In this document: positions 5,861 to 26,467 of the stretch, piece by piece
Layout: the number at the start of each line of letters is the position of its first letter
Numbering within the stretch: the first letter of the stretch is position 1
Origin: Planctomycetota bacterium
GTDB taxonomy: Bacteria > Planctomycetota > Phycisphaerae > Phycisphaerales > Phycisphaeraceae
Assembly (NCBI GenBank): GCA_021413865.1
Contig: JAIOPN010000026.1
Coordinates: forward strand, 1 to 64,000
Length of the DNA stretch: 64,000 bases
Direction of reading: 5' to 3'
Made by a program: the position numbers and the translations under genes
Notes under the pieces: model-generated
The model's input: only the letters and a program-made list of their open reading frames with translations
What the model was told of the DNA's origin: nothing
The model's database searches: none

Positions 5861-7297
5861 ATGACCATCGCACCGCGCGACCCACACCGGCCCGGCTACC
5901 ACTTCATGCCGCCCAAGAACTGGATGAACGACCCCAACGGGTTGATCCAGTTCCGCGGCCGATATCACATTTTCTACCAGCACAACCCCAACGCCGCCGT
6001 GTGGGGCGACATGCACTGGGGCCACGCCGTCAGCGATGACATGGTCCGCTGGAAACACCTCCCGCCCGCCATCGCGCCCACCCCCGGCGGTTACGACAAG
6101 GACGGCGTCTTCTCGGGCTGCTGCGTCGATTTCGACGGCCGGCCCGCGGCGCTCTACACCGGCATAAGCCCAGAGGTGCAGTGCCTCGCCTTCGCCGACG
6201 ACCCGAATGACCCCGACCTGCGCACATGGACCAAGCACGCGGGCAACCCTGTCATCCCCGCGCCGCCACGCATCGGCGAGTTGACCGGCTTCCGCGACCC
6301 CTACGTTTGGCGTGAGGCGGATGGCTGGCACATGGCCGTGGGTTCGGGCCTCCGCTCCGCCCCGCGCGGGCCTCTGCCGCGCGGTTGTGTATTGCTCTAC
6401 CGCTCGACGGACCTGGTGAACTGGGAATACCTGCACACGCTCTGCGAGGGCGACGCCAACGAGGGCGAGATGTGGGAGTGCCCGAACTTTTTCGAGTTAG
6501 ACGGCAAGCACGTCCTGCTCATTGCCGGGCTGCCCTCGGGCAAGTCGGTGTACCTCGTGGGCGACTATCGCGACAAGCGTTTCTCTCCGCGCCTGCGCGG
6601 CGAGATCGACGCCGGCGGCTCGCTCTACGCCCCGCAGGTCTTCACCGACGCGAAGGGTAGGGGGATCATGTTCGGCTGGCTGCGCGAGACACGCCCGATT
6701 TCCGCACAGGCCGCGTCCGGTTGGGCCTGCGCGCAGACGCTGCCGCGCGTGCTGACGCTCGGCGACGACGGCGCCCTGCGTTACGCCCCGGCCGAGGAGG
6801 TCCGCTCGCTGCGCCTCGCCGGGCCGGGCGACCACCGCACGTGGGTGAGTGTGCCTTGGTCCGGCGATCACACGCTCGCCTTGCACGCGGACGACACGAT
6901 CGAGATCGAGGCCGTCTTCGACCCGCCGCGCGGCGAGACGGGGCTCGCCGTCCGCCGCTCGCCCGACGGCTCCGAGCAGACGCGCATCACATGGAGCCCC
7001 GTGACCCGCCGTCTCACCCTCGACATGACGCGCGGGAGTCTCGACGCCACGACGCAGCGCGATCGGCGCGAGGCCCCACTCTCGATCGAGGCCGGCGAAC
7101 CCCTGCGGCTGCGCGTCTTCGTCGACCGCTCGATTATCGAGGTCTTCGCCAACGACCGGGCCTGCCTCACCGGTCGTGTGTATCCGACGCGCAACGACGC
7201 GCTCGGCGTGGCGCTGGCGTCGAATGGCCCCGCCACGCTTTCCAGGCTCGACCTCTGGCGTCTCGATCCGGTGCTGGACTGCGCTGCGGCGGTGTGA
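5861..7297 (+). CDS. Glycoside hydrolase family 32 (fructan/sucrose hydrolase)
   Basis: A 478-residue five-bladed propeller plus beta-sandwich enzyme that should release fructose from sucrose, inulin or levan. All three GH32 signatures are present: WMNDPNG with nucleophile Asp24, FRDP with Asp146, and WEC with acid/base Glu206. The C-terminal sandwich is recognisable from LRVFVDRSIIEVFAND. The ATG at 5861 is chosen because MTIAPRDPHRPGYHF leads straight into the catalytic domain; the longer frame from 5768 is coded by the right arm of the upstream repeat. No signal peptide is seen, so it probably acts in the cytoplasm. No sugar transporter or regulator adjoins it. Confidence 0.93.
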   Translation: MTIAPRDPHRPGYHFMPPKNWMNDPNGLIQFRGRYHIFYQHNPNAAVWGDMHWGHAVSDDMVRWKHLPPAIAPTPGGYDKDGVFSGCCVDFDGRPAALYTGISPEVQCLAFADDPNDPDLRTWTKHAGNPVIPAPPRIGELTGFRDPYVWREADGWHMAVGSGLRSAPRGPLPRGCVLLYRSTDLVNWEYLHTLCEGDANEGEMWECPNFFELDGKHVLLIAGLPSGKSVYLVGDYRDKRFSPRLRGEIDAGGSLYAPQVFTDAKGRGIMFGWLRETRPISAQAASGWACAQTLPRVLTLGDDGALRYAPAEEVRSLRLAGPGDHRTWVSVPWSGDHTLALHADDTIEIEAVFDPPRGETGLAVRRSPDGSEQTRITWSPVTRRLTLDMTRGSLDATTQRDRREAPLSIEAGEPLRLRVFVDRSIIEVFANDRACLTGRVYPTRNDALGVALASNGPATLSRLDLWRLDPVLDCAAAV

Positions 7298-7354
7298 GCG
7301 GCGCGGGATCGTCCTATCATTCCTTTAGCCTGAATGACATCACGAGAGCCAACC

Positions 7355-7777
7355 ATGAGCGTCCAGATTGATCTTGTTTACGAGGGCCAACTCCACACCC
7401 GCGCCACGCACGGCCCCTCCGGCGCGGCCATCGCCACCGACGCCCCCGTGGACAATGGCGGGAAAGGCTCGGCCTTTTCCCCGACGGACCTCGTCGCCGC
7501 CGCGCTGGGGGCGTGCATGATCACCATCATGGGCAAGGTCGCCGAGCGCCACGCGTGGGACTTGTCGGGCACCCGCGTGCGCGTCTTCAAGGAGATGATC
7601 CAGCAGCCCGTCCGCCGGATCGGTGCGCTGCGTGCGACGATTACCGTCCCGCGCCCGCTCTCCGCAACGCTCTCGGTCGACGACCGCAAGCGGCTCGAAA
7701 ACGCCGCCGAGACCTGCCCAGTGCGCAAGAGCCTGCACCCGGACGTGCAGTTGCCTGTGGAGTTCATCTACGAGTGA
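7355..7777 (+). CDS. OsmC-family peroxiredoxin-like protein
   Basis: A 140-residue protein of the OsmC/Ohr fold, which reduces organic hydroperoxides through two cysteines. Both are present, in ALGACMITIM and in ETCPVRKSL. The SPTDLVAAALGAC helix is the family hallmark. The start at 7355 (MSVQIDLVYEG) is preferred to the in-frame ATG seven codons earlier. It follows GH32 by 57 bases on the same strand and may share its transcript. The general OsmC subfamily rather than Ohr proper is favoured by overall similarity, but substrate is unknown. Confidence 0.88.
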   Translation: MSVQIDLVYEGQLHTRATHGPSGAAIATDAPVDNGGKGSAFSPTDLVAAALGACMITIMGKVAERHAWDLSGTRVRVFKEMIQQPVRRIGALRATITVPRPLSATLSVDDRKRLENAAETCPVRKSLHPDVQLPVEFIYE

Positions 7778-7839
7778 CCGCCGTATTGTGCTGCTAGAAT
7801 CAAACACGCCGCCACAGCGGCGACACACGGAACCTAGCC

Positions 7840-8691
7840 ATGCCCCTCACGCCCCAACAGATCGAACAATTCCGCACGCAGGGCTACCTCGTTGTGCCCG
7901 ATCTTTTCTCCACGCCCGAGGTTCACGCCATGCAGGCGGAGGTGGAGCGGTTCAAGCGTGAGGACAAATTCCGCAACGTCGCCACCGACGGCGACGGCAA
8001 GACGCACTCCAGCAAGCAGCGCAACCTCCAGATATGCCCGACCTACAAGATCAGCAATTTCTTCCGCGCCCTCCCGTTTGACCCCAAGGTCGTCGAGGCG
8101 GTCAGCGGGCTGATCGGCGACCCGTTCCTTCTCCACCTCGACCAGATCTTCCTCAAGCCCGCCGGCGACGGCATGGGCACCAACTGGCACCAGGACAACG
8201 CCTACTTCAAGATCGCCGACCCGCTCAAGGGCACCGCCATGTGGATCGCCGTGCACGACGCGACCGTCGCCAACGGGACGCTCCGTGTTATCCCCAACAT
8301 GTTTCGCGAGGAACTGCCCCACGAGCGCGACCCGATGAGCGACCACCACATCCGCTGCTACCCCGACGAGACGCACGCGCAGGTCTGCGAGGTGAAGGCG
8401 GGGGGCGTGGTCTTCTTCTGCTACGGCACGCCGCACTCGACCGCCGCCAATCACACCGACAAGGACCGTGCCGGTTTCGCGTACCATTTCCTCCATGAGA
8501 GCGTCGCCGCGGGCACCTCGTACGGCGACAGGATCCTCGCCGATGGTCGTGACTACAACCCGTTCCTGACCGGCCCCAAGGCCAGCGGTGGGCTCAAGGA
8601 GTACGGCTCGACCGTCGCGGGCACGTGGCCGATCGAGGTCGCCAAGGCGCTGGATATGGCGCGACAGGTCGAAGCGGTCGGGGCGCGGTGA
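7840..8691 (+). CDS. Phytanoyl-CoA dioxygenase (PhyH) family protein
   Basis: A 283-residue Fe(II)/2-oxoglutarate-dependent dioxygenase of the double-stranded beta-helix fold. The facial triad looks complete: His117-x-Asp119 in NWHQDN and His199 in GTPHS, with Arg210 placed to bind 2-oxoglutarate. Bacterial members hydroxylate diverse small molecules, so a phytanoyl-CoA substrate should not be assumed. It precedes two GH20-like genes with a 79-base gap on the same strand, hinting at a shared sugar-related job. It is one of three PhyH-like genes in the window, and the three are not close paralogues. Confidence 0.9.
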   Translation: MPLTPQQIEQFRTQGYLVVPDLFSTPEVHAMQAEVERFKREDKFRNVATDGDGKTHSSKQRNLQICPTYKISNFFRALPFDPKVVEAVSGLIGDPFLLHLDQIFLKPAGDGMGTNWHQDNAYFKIADPLKGTAMWIAVHDATVANGTLRVIPNMFREELPHERDPMSDHHIRCYPDETHAQVCEVKAGGVVFFCYGTPHSTAANHTDKDRAGFAYHFLHESVAAGTSYGDRILADGRDYNPFLTGPKASGGLKEYGSTVAGTWPIEVAKALDMARQVEAVGAR

Positions 8692-8770
8692 ACCGCACGT
8701 TCTCCTTCATCATTGACGCCCGCGCAGCATCGTCGTAGCCTCCCGCTTCCTCAATCGGAACGCGCCGGCC

Positions 8771-10378
8771 ATGCCACGATCTCGCGACGGACAGACGCTC
8801 ATCGGCGTGCATCTCGACCTCAAGGGCGTGATGTTCAGGCCGGCGTACATCCCGCAACTCCTCGCCGACCTCTCCGGGCGCGGGGTGAACGCGGTGCTCG
8901 TCGAATATGAGGATATTTTCCCCTTCAACGGGATCGACCTCGCGTGGGACGACTCGGTCGTCTGGTCGCGGGCGACGCTCAAGCGGTTTCTCGCCGAGGC
9001 GGCTAAGAACCACATCGAAGTGATCCCGCTGCAGCAGTGTCTGGGCCATTTTGAATACGTCTTCCGCTGGCGACGCTACCGGAAGTTCGCGCTCGACCTG
9101 AAATACCCCAGCACGGTGGACGTGACGAACCCCAAGGCGGTGGGGCTGATCCACGAGATGCTGCGACAGGTGATCGCCGCTCACCCCGAAAGCCGGTACG
9201 TCCACCTGGGCATGGACGAGGCGCATGCGCTGGTGGCCTATTGCAAGGCGAACAAGCGCGACGTCGTCGAAATGTTCCTCCATCATCTCTCAAAACTCTG
9301 CGATATCTGTGAGGCCTACGGGAAGACGCCGATCATCTGGTCCGACATGCTCGAGGACTACATGAACGAGCGGTCGCTGAAGCTGTTTGAAAAGTTCCGC
9401 GATCGGGTGGTGCTCTGCCCGTGGGACTACGGCTCGGCCGGGGAGACGATCGGCGCCGGGCGGATCACGGGCTTCCGTGCGAGCCGGGCGTGGCTCGACG
9501 CGGCCGACGCACCGGAGGCGCCGACGCTCGGCGCGGGGACAACATTCATCGAGGATATTCCCAAGGCGGTGCGCAGGCTGGTGCAACCCTACCTGCACGG
9601 CTCCCAGCGCCCGGTGTTCACCTCCATGTTTCAGGCGGACCTCTGGACTAAGCTCGGATTCCGCGTGCTCGGGGCGACGGCGATCCGTTGTTCGACGAAC
9701 CTCGCCACGTTGCCGCTCTACATCAAGCAGACGGAAAACATCCGTGCCTGGGGCCGGGCGATCAAACGCACGAAACAGCTTGGGCTTGTCGGCACGTCTT
9801 GGGCGCGGGGGACATCGTGGTGCCCGCCGGGGTTCAGCATCGACTTGACCTGGCCGTTGATCGACGAGATGGCCCGCGCGATGGGGGCGAAGCCGGGGCT
9901 CTATTTCAAGGGCATCCCCGCGAAAACGGCCGATCGCATTATCAAGACGCTCGGCCGGTCACGCGCCGACTGGCGGCTCGAGGGGGTGATGGCGAACGAG
10001 ATGGACCGGCTCGCGCCGAGGTTGAAGGGCGCGGCGGGCCACCGTTACGAGTGGGAGAGCATCGCCCTGATGGCCCGGGTGATGCAGTGGCAGCGCCGCG
10101 CGGAGTACAACATCCTCGAGGTCGATTTCTTCGACGCCAACAACCGGCCGGTGGACAGCGAGTGGCAGCGGAGGCTCGACGAACAGGCGGGCACGCTGCG
10201 CGACAGCGAGGCGCTGCGCCGCCGGGTGAAATCGCACTTTTCCCGCTGCTACCACGGCGATGCCTTCGAGGAATGGGTCCGCGACCTGTTTGATCTCCAC
10301 GTCAAACGCATCCGCGACGGCCGGGCGATCTGCCGGAAGAAATTACGAGAGTCCCGACGTTTCTACGCATCACGCTGA
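8771..10378 (+). CDS. GH20-like (hexosaminidase-superfamily) protein, tandem copy 1
   Basis: A 535-residue protein with a TIM-barrel start (IGVHLDLKG) and the motif HLGMDEAH at 145-152. The Asp149-Glu150 pair matches the HxGxDE catalytic signature of GH20 beta-N-acetylhexosaminidases, in which Glu is the acid/base and Asp orients the substrate acetamido group. The GH20 N-terminal domain and a signal peptide are absent. The C-terminal third (about 380-535) is helical, rich in Arg and Glu, and does not match a domain I recognise. The next gene is its paralogue, with similar length and shared blocks throughout. Cytoplasmic glycosidase is the best guess; substrate unknown. Confidence 0.8.
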   Translation: MPRSRDGQTLIGVHLDLKGVMFRPAYIPQLLADLSGRGVNAVLVEYEDIFPFNGIDLAWDDSVVWSRATLKRFLAEAAKNHIEVIPLQQCLGHFEYVFRWRRYRKFALDLKYPSTVDVTNPKAVGLIHEMLRQVIAAHPESRYVHLGMDEAHALVAYCKANKRDVVEMFLHHLSKLCDICEAYGKTPIIWSDMLEDYMNERSLKLFEKFRDRVVLCPWDYGSAGETIGAGRITGFRASRAWLDAADAPEAPTLGAGTTFIEDIPKAVRRLVQPYLHGSQRPVFTSMFQADLWTKLGFRVLGATAIRCSTNLATLPLYIKQTENIRAWGRAIKRTKQLGLVGTSWARGTSWCPPGFSIDLTWPLIDEMARAMGAKPGLYFKGIPAKTADRIIKTLGRSRADWRLEGVMANEMDRLAPRLKGAAGHRYEWESIALMARVMQWQRRAEYNILEVDFFDANNRPVDSEWQRRLDEQAGTLRDSEALRRRVKSHFSRCYHGDAFEEWVRDLFDLHVKRIRDGRAICRKKLRESRRFYASR

Positions 10379-10408
10379 ACGAGAGAGCACCACACCCGCG
10401 AGTAAACC

Positions 10409-11989
10409 ATGAGCAAGAAGAGCCGGTACGTCGTCGGCGTCCACCTCGACCTCAAGGGGACGATGTTCAAGCCCTCGTATATCCCGCAGCTCCTGGGCGA
10501 TCTTGCGGGGCAGGGGGTGAACGCGGTGCTCGTCGAGTACGAGGACATCTTCCCGTTCAAGGGCATCGATATCGCCTACGACAGAAAGACCGTTTGGTCG
10601 CGCACGACCTTGCGAAAATTCCTCGACCTCGCGGAGATGAACGGCATCGAGGTGATCCCGCTGCAGCAGTGCATGGGCCACCTCGAGTACGTGCTGGGGT
10701 GGAAGAAATACCGCAAGTTCGCCGAGGACAAGGCCTACCCCAGCACCATCAATGTGACCGACCGCAATGCGGTATCGCTGATCAAGGAGATGCTGCGGCA
10801 GATCGTCGAGGGCCACCCGGGCAGCCGGTTCATTCACCTGGGCATGGACGAGGCGCACGCGATCCGCCACACCGCCAAGCGATTAGGCCGCACGGTGCAG
10901 GAGGTTTTTCTTGAACACCTGCGCGTGCTGCTGCCGGTGGTCGAGTCGGCGGGGAAGAAGGCGTACATCTGGACGGACATGTTGGAGGATGATTTCCACC
11001 CCGGCGCATTCAAGGAGTTCGCGGGGCGCGTGATTTTCGGCACGTGGGATTACAACACGGCGGCGGGAGACGAGCTGCCGGTCGCGCGGCTGAAGGGTGT
11101 GCGGTATAGCCGTGAGTGGCTCGATGAGCCGGAGAACCCCGCGGCGCCGTCGATCGGCGCGGGCACGCAGTTCGTCGAGGACTACCCCGCGCACATCAAG
11201 AAGGTGCTTGAGCCCTACCGCAATGGCCGGCTCTACCGGCGCAACTTCCACATCGATCTGTGGACGAAGGAGGGTATGACCTGCCTGCCCGTCAGCGCGC
11301 TGCGCGTCAGCTCGAACCTCTCCGTGCTCCCGCCCTACAACGCCTGCATGCGGAACATCCGCGGCTGGAGCAAGGCGATCCACCGCACGAAGCAGCTCGG
11401 GCAGATCGGCACCTCGTGGGCTCGCGGCACGTCGTGGTGCCCGCCGAACTTCTCCATTGATTTGCAGTGGCCGCAGATCGCCGAGCTGTCGCGCTCGATG
11501 GGCAACTCACCCAGGCCTTTCTGGCCGGGGATCCCGCCGAAAACGGTGGAGCGGATCATCAAGACGCTCGGCCGGTCGCGCGAGGACTGGCGGCTGGAGG
11601 GCAAGATCGCTGCCGAGATGGAGGCCCTGTCGCCAAAGGTGAAGGAGCACAGCTTCGAGTGGGACGGCACGGCGATGATGGCCCGTGTGCTCGAACTGCA
11701 ACGCCGTGCCTCGTACAACATCGAAGAGGTCGATTTCTTCCACGCCAATATTCGGCCCGTAGAGTCCGAGTGGCAGCGCCGTATCGCCGAGCAGAAGCAG
11801 ACGCTGCGCGATATCGAGGCGATGCGCAAAAAGGTGATCGCCCACTTCGGCAAACGTTACCACGGCGACGCGTTCAACGAATGGGTCCGCCACCTGTTCG
11901 ACCTGTACGTCAAACGGATCGAGGATTGCCAGGCGATCTGCCGGAAGAAGCTGGCGCTGGCGAAGAAGGTTTACGCAAGCAAGAAGTGA
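10409..11989 (+). CDS. GH20-like (hexosaminidase-superfamily) protein, tandem copy 2
   Basis: A 526-residue paralogue of the preceding gene, 30 bases downstream. Both share VLVEYEDIFPF, PLQQC(L/M)GH, HLGMDEAH (here Asp147-Glu148), GTSWARGTSWCPP and the C-terminal RYHGDAF-EWVR block. Divergence is spread along the whole length, so the duplication is old and both copies have been kept with the putative catalytic pair intact. No signal peptide. The two may form a heteromer or act on related glycans. Function beyond the superfamily is inference. Confidence 0.8.
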   Translation: MSKKSRYVVGVHLDLKGTMFKPSYIPQLLGDLAGQGVNAVLVEYEDIFPFKGIDIAYDRKTVWSRTTLRKFLDLAEMNGIEVIPLQQCMGHLEYVLGWKKYRKFAEDKAYPSTINVTDRNAVSLIKEMLRQIVEGHPGSRFIHLGMDEAHAIRHTAKRLGRTVQEVFLEHLRVLLPVVESAGKKAYIWTDMLEDDFHPGAFKEFAGRVIFGTWDYNTAAGDELPVARLKGVRYSREWLDEPENPAAPSIGAGTQFVEDYPAHIKKVLEPYRNGRLYRRNFHIDLWTKEGMTCLPVSALRVSSNLSVLPPYNACMRNIRGWSKAIHRTKQLGQIGTSWARGTSWCPPNFSIDLQWPQIAELSRSMGNSPRPFWPGIPPKTVERIIKTLGRSREDWRLEGKIAAEMEALSPKVKEHSFEWDGTAMMARVLELQRRASYNIEEVDFFHANIRPVESEWQRRIAEQKQTLRDIEAMRKKVIAHFGKRYHGDAFNEWVRHLFDLYVKRIEDCQAICRKKLALAKKVYASKK

Positions 11990-24262: not shown

Positions 24263-25117
24263 CTACAGCCGCTCCGCCGCCGGGTCCGCGAGCCTGCGCG
24301 TCCGGCTGGGCCAGCCGTAGCGCTTATCGCCCGTCAGCAGGGGGCGGAGTTCCGACGGGGCCTGGGCGACGAAGTCCGGTTCCGGCTCGTAGCCCTGCCA
24401 CGTCTGGAACATCGTCGGCGTGTAGCCGCCGATGATCAGCACGCGGTCGTTGTCGGAGCGGATGATGCCCGAGCTGTGCAGCGTCGCCTCATAAAAGAGC
24501 AGCGTCGAGCCGGCGGGGGCGACGACCCAGTGGATCAGCCGCGGGTCGTCCTGCGCCGCCTTGATGACCTCGGCCGCGTCCATGTGGGCGAGCTTGTGGC
24601 TGCCCGCAATCACCGTCGTGCCGCCGTCGTCGGGCCCCAGGTCGGTGAGGTTGGTCAGCGTCTTGACGAAGTGGCAATGGAAGAGCCCCTCGTTGCCGCG
24701 CCAGGTGAAGTGGGTGCCCGCCCCGCGGTGGAAGCCGTAGCCCTGCTCCGCTTTGTTGGCCGGCGGGCGGCGGATGTGAACGTCCGACTGCTCGAGCCGC
24801 GCCTCGCCACCGATGATCTCCTCGGCCATGCCCACGAGGTACGGATGCGCGACGTACTCGAGGTAGCTCGGGTCCACGTGCGGAAGGTTGTCGATGCGGA
24901 AGTACTCGCGTGACGAGCCGAACATCGCCTTGCTGCGGTCCTTAAAGGTCCCGGTGCGGCGGAACTCCTCCTCGATCTCGTAGGTCTTGGCCCGCAGCCG
25001 CACCGTGAGGTCGGCGGAGATGGCCTGCTCGATCACGACGTAGCCGTACACCTCCAGGTGCAGCCGCTGGGTGGGCGTGAGCGCGGGGAAGGGGCGTTTG
25101 AAGTCGGGGGTTTTCAT
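24263..25117 (-). CDS. PhyH-family protein with His-x-Gly metal motif
   Basis: A 284-residue protein of the PhyH double-stranded beta-helix fold. Distal His214 (ATLHSSG) and Arg225 are in place for iron and 2-oxoglutarate, and GTTVIAGSHK is the usual loop. The proximal motif, however, reads GFHRGAG, giving His130-x-Gly132 instead of His-x-Asp. In 2-oxoglutarate halogenases the Asp is replaced by Ala or Gly so that chloride can bind iron. Here the change could mean halogenation, another ligand, or loss of activity. The start MKTPDFKRPF at 25117 is preferred over an upstream in-frame start at 25165. Neighbours give no pathway. Confidence 0.82.
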   Translation of the reverse strand: MKTPDFKRPFPALTPTQRLHLEVYGYVVIEQAISADLTVRLRAKTYEIEEEFRRTGTFKDRSKAMFGSSREYFRIDNLPHVDPSYLEYVAHPYLVGMAEEIIGGEARLEQSDVHIRRPPANKAEQGYGFHRGAGTHFTWRGNEGLFHCHFVKTLTNLTDLGPDDGGTTVIAGSHKLAHMDAAEVIKAAQDDPRLIHWVVAPAGSTLLFYEATLHSSGIIRSDNDRVLIIGGYTPTMFQTWQGYEPEPDFVAQAPSELRPLLTGDKRYGWPSRTRRLADPAAERL

Positions 25118-25447
25118 TTGATGTCGTCTCATGCGCGGGGGCGTGGGATCGTCACGGACAAGCACACCAGCGTAACGAGACGGCGGGGAGGTTCAACGGT
25201 GGGTGTGGAGAAGGCCAGACGCCACGCCCAGTATCGCCCGTTGACAACCCCTGACTCCGCTCGCATGCTGTCCCTTGCATGGATAACCGATGTGCCTTTG
25301 TCGCTTGCGTTAGACGAAACACCACGTCAGAAAAACGCCGACTGCTACCAATGGATAACCTTGACCCCTCTTTCACTCTCAATTGGAAAACAAGACACGC
25401 GGGCAAGGCAATCGGATAAGACTTTTTACGGCAACTCGCTAGCGAGA
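25118..25447. other. Gene-free, lower-G+C leader of the nuclease gene
   Basis: A 330-base divergent intergenic region. G+C falls sharply relative to the PhyH gene on its left. It contains a repeated ATGGATAACC (25279 and 25350 areas) and one promoter-like pair described separately. The open frame that crosses it in phase with the nuclease has no family-like sequence and is not believed. Confidence 0.5.
25241..25269 (+). promoter_or_regulatory. Weak candidate promoter upstream of the nuclease gene
   Basis: A perfect TTGACA (25241-25246) is followed after 17 bases by CATGCT (25264-25269), which matches only three of six -10 positions. It would give a leader of roughly 170 bases. The match is suggestive only. 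Confidence 0.25.
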
Positions 25448-26467
25448 ATGTTTTCGATGGCTGCGTCAACCGCTTTTAATGTTTTTGACTTGGTTGCGCT
25501 TCCTCGGAAAGAGGAGCCGCACGATCGCGTCTTGGAATGGCTTTGCGATCCGACTGCAACTCATGGCGTAGCGGATTTCGCCGCCAGGATTGTGCGATTG
25601 CTGTGGCCCCATCCATTTGAAGAACAGGTCTTACGAAAAAAACGCCAGTTCAAGCTGGACGCCGACAGCTACCCCGATCTGGTGGTGGAATTTACGTCGA
25701 GCTTATTGGTCATCGAGAACAAGGTGAATGCTTCCGCCCTCCGGTCAGGCCAGTTGGAAAAACAAAATGAGCTTGCCGGCAAGAAACAGAACGGCAAAGG
25801 GCTGTACCACGTTTTGCTCTGTCCCGACCGCCTTTCCACGATTGGCATTGCCCTGAATGAGCCGAGTTTTGCTGTATTACGTTACAGCCAATACGCAGAG
25901 CTCGTACGAGAGATATTACCGTCGTCCAAAGATGAGGATGCGAAGATAATGTTGGCGCACTACGCCCAACATGTTGAACGGCAATATGGCAAAGCGATGC
26001 CCCCAGGGCTGCGCGCAGCCGCCGGCAGCACGATTGCCAAGCGGAACACCGACAAACAGGTATGGTCCGAAGAACGCTTTATCGCCCAGGCTGAAGAGCG
26101 GGGTTCAGCAGAGTTGCGAGACGCCCAAGTGGAACTGCTGGATTTGATCCGTTCCATGGAAGCGGTAGAGCCACGTTTTGATAGCAGCGGGCCCGTCAAC
26201 GCCACCTATAAGATCTATCTGGCGGGTACGAACGTGCACTTTCTGTGGGTGTACGCGGACGGCCGGCTGTATGTGACTTGGAGTTTCCTTACGGCTGCGG
26301 GCCACGCCAACGCCGCGGCGGCTTGGAAGCAGATGTGGTCTGATCGACTGACAGACTCAACCAAGAAGGACGGTTGTAACGCTAAAGATAACTTGATCGA
26401 AATTGGCACGGCAGAGATCGCCCAGAAACTCCAGCGTATCGCGGATGTTGCGGGTGCAAAAGGCTGA
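25448..26467 (+). CDS. PD-(D/E)XK nuclease superfamily protein (PDDEXK_4-like)
   Basis: A 339-residue protein. The nuclease core is SYPDLVVEF with Asp77, then LLVIENKVNA with Glu90 and Lys92, followed by a basic QLEKQNELAGKK helix and a strand LYHVLLCPDR; this is the pattern of the PF14281-type superfamily. The C-terminal section (about 235-335) is a separate beta-rich domain. ATG at 25448 or a second ATG three codons later are the plausible starts. G+C is lower than both neighbours, indicating transfer. No methylase, helicase or toxin-antitoxin partner lies beside it. It could be an anti-phage nuclease, but that is inference. Confidence 0.78.
   Translation: MFSMAASTAFNVFDLVALPRKEEPHDRVLEWLCDPTATHGVADFAARIVRLLWPHPFEEQVLRKKRQFKLDADSYPDLVVEFTSSLLVIENKVNASALRSGQLEKQNELAGKKQNGKGLYHVLLCPDRLSTIGIALNEPSFAVLRYSQYAELVREILPSSKDEDAKIMLAHYAQHVERQYGKAMPPGLRAAAGSTIAKRNTDKQVWSEERFIAQAEERGSAELRDAQVELLDLIRSMEAVEPRFDSSGPVNATYKIYLAGTNVHFLWVYADGRLYVTWSFLTAAGHANAAAAWKQMWSDRLTDSTKKDGCNAKDNLIEIGTAEIAQKLQRIADVAGAKG

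Follow-up and report, generated by a model that had tools for sequence, protein, structure and literature searches.

A planctomycete PhyH-family protein with Gly in place of the Asp iron ligand is probably a two-histidine oxygenase of the HygX branch

P0001 is a PhyH-family protein encoded by a Planctomycetota bacterium within a window of 64,000 nucleotides (the whole stretch of DNA analysed here), and it carries Gly132 in place of the usual Asp iron ligand. We propose that P0001 is probably an active two-His Fe(II)/2-oxoglutarate (2OG) oxygenase of the branch that contains HygX, in which Glu210, located four residues before the distal His (position -4), stands in for the missing Asp. As a probable two-His oxygenase of the HygX/AspH type, P0001 is more likely to be an unusual oxygenase than a halogenase.

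With the Pfam PhyH model (PF05721), whose cut-off is 22 bits, P0001 scores 59.2 bits; the protein lacks the HxD...H facial triad of PhyH, with H-R-G at residues 130-132. The initial annotation had described His130-Arg-Gly132 in place of HxD, with His214 and Arg225 intact, and both the codons and the residues confirm this description (Table 1). HxD is not demanded by the Pfam model, as 14 of its 108 matches in the source genome are of the HxG type. The window contains two further PhyH proteins, which were said to keep Asp, and they indeed read HQD (7840) and HID (17294). For the former, P0002 (7840-8691), the nearest matches are a monooxygenase (6zyk) and the orthosomycin oxygenase EvdO2. An ORF (25121-26467) that runs divergently from the P0001 gene has no Pfam match; its third-position GC of 0.61 is below that of its neighbours, and it was possibly acquired.

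Table 1. Coordinates of the P0001 gene and of its active-site residues within the window
Feature	Position	Strand	Remarks
PhyH-family protein P0001, HxG + ExxxH type	24263..25117	-	284 aa; ORF and Pfam match
P0001 alternative start	25132	-	+5 aa
His130, proximal iron ligand (assigned by alignment)	24728..24730	-	CAC; invariant in both alignments
Gly132, in place of the usual Asp ligand	24722..24724	-	GGG; invariant in both alignments
Glu210, distal His -4, proposed stand-in for the missing carboxylate	24488..24490	-	GAG; Glu in 10/10 close relatives
His214, distal iron ligand (assigned by alignment)	24476..24478	-	CAC; invariant
Arg225, 2OG anchor (assigned by alignment)	24443..24445	-	CGC; invariant

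The source genome (G000) holds its 108 PhyH matches in 4.37 Mb, an abundance of the kind that a 2014 paper reported as peculiar to Poribacteria (PMC3909097). When these proteins were aligned, 92 carried HxD in the proximal motif, 14 HxG, one HxQ and one HxE, with C33:161358, which reads HGG by eye, counted as the fourteenth HxG protein. The earlier claim that the substitution does not characterise the genome at large therefore needs correcting: P0001 is not alone, being one of a minority of 14 HxG proteins. We found Asp or Glu at -4 from the distal His in all 14 HxG proteins and in the single HxQ and HxE proteins, compared to only 3 of the 92 HxD proteins. A Fisher test comparing 13/13 HxG with 3/92 HxD proteins gave 4e-14 with rows that are not independent; this figure predates the recognition of the fourteenth HxG protein, and our conclusions do not rest on it.

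Matches to P0001 at E 1e-10 occur in 14 of 101 genomes. The closest relative is a 78% ortholog in G017 (contig JAPLMQ010000313, a Lake Pavin Planctomycetota MAG), which carries three more relatives at 44-47%, and one 48% relative was found in an uncultured marine bacterium. G000 itself has four paralogs at 42-45% side by side on contig C49, where locus L125 (C49:20000-39000) holds four tandem HxG PhyH genes at ~6044-11630, preceded by a PhyH gene that keeps HxD and has HEAT repeats fused behind. All ten close-family members carry H, G, E, H and R at positions 130, 132, 210, 214 and 225, respectively; Asp at position 132, which the initial annotation had suggested looking for among close homologues, is found in none of the ten. 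H130, G132, H214 and R225 are also invariant in a 24-row alignment spanning 21-77% identity to P0001, from which the HxD outgroup row L044 was left out. Sequencing error or decay as the source of Gly132 is excluded by the residue conservation in 10/10 members together with a dN/dS of 0.36 between P0001 and the 78% ortholog (282 codons). A profile built from the 24 rows was searched against 392 genomes sampled from the phylum, of which 29 gave a match at E 1e-20. At E 1e-25 it matched all 16 genomes of a second phylum, which is apparently distinct from the first, given that it comprises only 16 genomes in the collection. Conservation of Gly132 over a clade, another expectation set out at the start, is thus borne out by the alignments and the tree described below, with a deep clade that includes Planctomycetota and the second phylum. 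A mobile origin of P0001 was rejected, with no match among plasmids at E 1e-8 or among phages at E 1e-5.

Both by sequence and by Foldseek, HygX is the solved structure closest to P0001. HygX was the top hit of a single-sequence PDB search (E 2.2e-8), and it led the searches with the 24-row profile (122.9 bits, followed by EctD with 70.7, SyrB2 with 38.5 and CytC3 with 24) and with a 10-row profile (76.4 bits, next 31.1). An AlphaFold2 model of P0001 had a mean pLDDT of 86.6 and a pTM of 0.88, and a Foldseek search with this predicted structure returned HygX at ranks 1-15. VIA-align put HygX first with a Z of 22.3 but did not separate it from other PhyH-fold oxygenases, which at 21.5 and below are tied within 1.

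HygX (PDB 4xc9, 4xca, 4xcb, 4zpi) resembles P0001 not only in its PhyH fold but also at the iron site, where its proximal Y-L-H-G-G corresponds to the HRG of P0001 and its distal E-A-L-M-H places Glu four residues before the distal His, as does E210. The two proteins share only ~20% identity, and while HygX belongs to an actinobacterial antibiotic cluster and acts on an aminoglycoside, P0001 is encoded by a free-standing planctomycete gene. The abstract of the HygX paper reportedly mentions variation in metal coordination. PhyH, EctD and other HxD members of PF05721 share the fold, the distal His and the Arg with P0001, but they keep the Asp ligand and mostly lack the acid at -4, as the census of G000 illustrates. 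HygX, which forms the orthoester of hygromycin B, is described as a cyclising oxygenase of hygromycin B biosynthesis in a review (PMC8234114) and in the title of Li 2018.

The acid at -4 recurred throughout the relatives that we collected. In the first set, which combined own-genome proteins with fetched relatives, all 31 HxG rows carry Asp or Glu at -4, and this includes 18 of 18 fetched rows scored HxG, HygX among them. In a further set of relatives (28 rows), 17/17 HxG rows carry the acid and the 7 HxD rows do not; matches at L131 and L159 were left out of this set as copies of C49 genes, and L130 is the same as L033. Three rows scored neither HxG nor HxD (L146, L148 and L150) also have the acid, while L151 has Gln at -4. 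Besides C33:161358, three rows were read as HxG by eye and not by script, namely L035 (WHGG), L146 (HSG) and L151 (HSG), and in L035 the acid sits at -5, after an insertion.

Loci from the phylum of G462 and from G463 extended this pattern to proteins that lack Gly. Across 38 loci, five of which (L160, L161, L162, L164 and L166) repeat genes already counted, Asp or Glu occupies -4 in 44/44 non-HxD proteins, compared to Ser in the single HxD protein. Of the 44, 31 have Gly as the third motif residue, 6 have Tyr and 6 have Asn, with 1 unread. At L188-L191, L195 and L197, PhyH proteins occur as adjacent pairs whose proximal motifs are HGY and HGN, and each partner has Glu at -4. Since the acid is kept in 44/44 proteins while the third residue varies, these sequences indicate that the acid is the conserved element and that Gly is merely the commonest of several non-ligating third residues. 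We found no prior description of the HxG/-4-acid pairing in PhyH within the limited set of literature searched.

To place these proteins, we used a tree of 156 rows, from which the two motif stretches had been removed, built by a quick search without bootstrap. A 57-row set (SH-aLRT 98) contains all 48 rows scored HxG together with HygX and P0001, and the 13-row set to which P0001 itself belongs has an SH-aLRT of 99. Of the 57 rows, 54 carry the acid at precisely -4; the exceptions are L035 and L151, with the residues given above, and the HxD protein C28:37691, which sits on a long branch and is of uncertain placement. Two sister PhyH proteins of G000 (C56:2352-2900 and C62:26309-26884), with HHE and HHQ, fall inside the clade with acid at -4. 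The number of independent HxG/-4-acid pairs in the PhyH tree is 1 when starred branches are counted and 3 with all branches, so repeated coupling inside PhyH is beyond statistical testing, and the HxG clade represents roughly a single evolutionary event.

A parallel outside PhyH comes from AspH, which is described as an HXG...H enzyme (PMC12816917). The human AspH sequence contains P-H-T-G and F-D-D-S-F-E-H, which puts D721 four residues before H725, so that AspH and P0001 share HxG...H, an acid at -4 (Asp and Glu, respectively) and, as proposed for P0001, a two-His iron site. According to PMC13168262, a water (W1) occupies the carboxylate site of AspH and is held by D721, and the D721A variant is substantially less active. 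AspH belongs to another Pfam family (PF05118) and has protein substrates, whereas Pfam reports just PhyH for P0001 at E 0.001, with no PF05118 match at that threshold. By analogy, the HxG...DxxxH pairing common to both is evidence that P0001 may work like AspH, not that it belongs to the same family. A sample of 99 genomes from the phylum contained four PF05118 proteins, and the HxG member L220 has D at -4, while the HxD members L221-L223 have T, V and T.

We suggest that His130 and His214 would hold the iron in P0001 and that 2OG would bind on the iron and Arg225, as their alignment with known ligands implies. The site emptied by Gly132 would be closed to chloride by Glu210 on the adjacent strand, whose carboxylate would fill the role of the lost Asp either by fixing a water there, in the arrangement seen in AspH, or by binding the iron itself. 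We favour the water-mediated form, as either Asp or Glu can occupy -4 within the clade, and we infer that E210 lies close to the iron from AspH, the strand register and the clade. O2 would then give rise to a ferryl-oxo species that abstracts hydrogen from the substrate, and the outcome would be ring closure, hydroxylation or oxidative demethylation of the substrate and not its halogenation. Of the three options offered by the initial annotation, a third ligand provided from elsewhere fits best, while a halogenase is unsupported and a sensor is disfavoured by the invariant residues. Likewise, the initial annotation had regarded a different Asp or Glu near the metal as speaking against a halogenase-like site, and such a residue is indicated by sequence alone, through the -4 acid in 14/14 HxG proteins.

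The neighbouring genes offer limited guidance on the substrate. P0001 is surrounded by genes for an SSF symporter, a DUF485 protein, a BNR repeat protein, a heparinase II/III-like protein and a GDSL protein, while its ortholog L055 lies near GH123_N, gluconolactonase, glucuronyl esterase-like and aldo/keto reductase genes. The C49 array is accompanied by heparinase II/III N, an aldo/keto reductase and HEAT-PhyH, and L056 by a 2-hydroxyacid dehydrogenase, an enolase family member, HAD, creatininase and Gfo/Idh. Among the hand-picked neighbours scanned, there was no conserved gene order around P0001, L055, the C49 array and L056. The carbohydrate flavour common to the four neighbourhoods is a weak hint, and a carbohydrate or sugar acid as the substrate is our guess from HygX and these neighbouring genes.

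One variant of this mechanism is that Glu210 binds the iron directly, so that the ExxxH strand would supply the triad carboxylate in place of the HxD strand. Almost all clade members have the -4 acid, whereas their third motif residue may be G, Q, E, S, T, Y or N, which speaks for such a move, but the interchange of the two acids at -4 (26 Glu and 22 Asp among the 48 HxG rows) suits a water-mediated contact better, and PMC13168262 describes the equivalent Asp of AspH as a second-sphere residue. We therefore regard direct ligation as unlikely. A broader reading, which we advance tentatively, is that a deep PhyH branch, found in at least two phyla rich in uncultured members and multiplied within individual genomes, may have shifted the carboxylate of its iron site out of HxD and into [D/E]xxxH, where it might even ligate the metal directly. 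This topology may support oxidative cyclisation or demethylation of sugars during glycan breakdown.

The initial annotation had raised a new halogenase-like branch. On this rival reading P0001 would be an Fe/2OG halogenase that binds chloride or bromide where Gly132 has vacated the iron, as SyrB2 and WelO5 do. Ala or Gly at the position of the Asp ligand is the mark of such enzymes, P0001 carries Gly there (G132), and HxG...H is a motif used for mining them (PMC12871659). SyrB2 and CytC3 share with P0001 the double-stranded beta-helix and a proximal motif without a carboxylate (theirs being HQA), and their scores with the 24-row profile make them distant relatives of the same fold. However, they carry Ser at -4 (F-W-S-T-L-M-H in SyrB2 and F-W-S-N-T-M-H in CytC3) where P0001 has an acid, and the nearest solved relative of P0001 is HygX, an oxygenase. 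TIGR01762, the chlorinating enzyme model with a cut-off of 226.3 bits, did not match P0001 at E 0.01, while the HxD neighbour P0002 scored 39.9 bits. In G000, the model gave 25 matches at E 0.001, with none above the cut-off and 0 of the 14 HxG genes among them, and none of 294 genomes of the phylum had a protein over the cut-off, with weaker matches in 74. Experiments on other enzymes also argue against this reading, as AspH, with the same pairing of residues, was not found to halogenate its own substrates (PMC13168262) and the D414G variant of a prolyl 4-hydroxylase gave no halogenase (PMC2767507).

The 12 loci that best match the chlorinating model yielded 15 readable PhyH ORFs. Ten of these encode HxD proteins, and 7 of the 10 carry an acid at -4, which shows that this residue also occurs outside HxG proteins. 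The same loci include L205 (HQG), with Glu at -4, and L208, with Gln at -4 and an incomplete motif. Three SyrB2-like HQA proteins of Planctomycetota relatives (L198, L199 and L200) also carry Glu at -4 and score 154, 150.9 and 115.2 bits with TIGR01762, under the cut-off. These proteins could be additional two-His oxygenases, or else acid-bearing halogenases, which would weaken the rule, and the acid alone may thus not exclude halide chemistry. In passages of PMC13244439, nothing was found on the -4 residue of BesD. With HygX as the nearest structure and TIGR01762 matching none of the 14 HxG genes, P0001 included, the proposed halogenase-like branch is unsupported and, in our assessment, improbable; membership of P0001 in the SyrB2 type was rejected as unsupported, not as disproved.

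A non-catalytic sensor or pseudoenzyme is the least probable reading: P0001 has lost the canonical ligand and no scanned neighbour is an operon partner that names a reaction, but the invariance of His130, His214 and Arg225 in 24 divergent rows speaks for catalysis, the dN/dS of 0.36 counts against a pseudoenzyme, and HygX, in the same clade, is an enzyme by the title of Li 2018.

On the broader, tentative reading given above, HxG combined with [D/E]xxxH would mark non-halogenating two-His oxygenases in PhyH, AspH and some SyrB2-like proteins, and such oxygenases would be mislabelled by genome mining that relies on HxG/A alone. HxG/A is taken as the mark of Fe/2OG halogenases in mining, for example in a 2026 preprint that itself warns of the false positives of this criterion (PMC12871659), and P0001 and its clade are likely a large source of them. 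The -4 residue offers a simple candidate sequence check rather than a proven rule, as some HxA SyrB2-like proteins carry the acid. If E210 holds water or iron, the clade would provide a natural branch of two-His oxygenases in which to probe hydroxylation versus halogenation.
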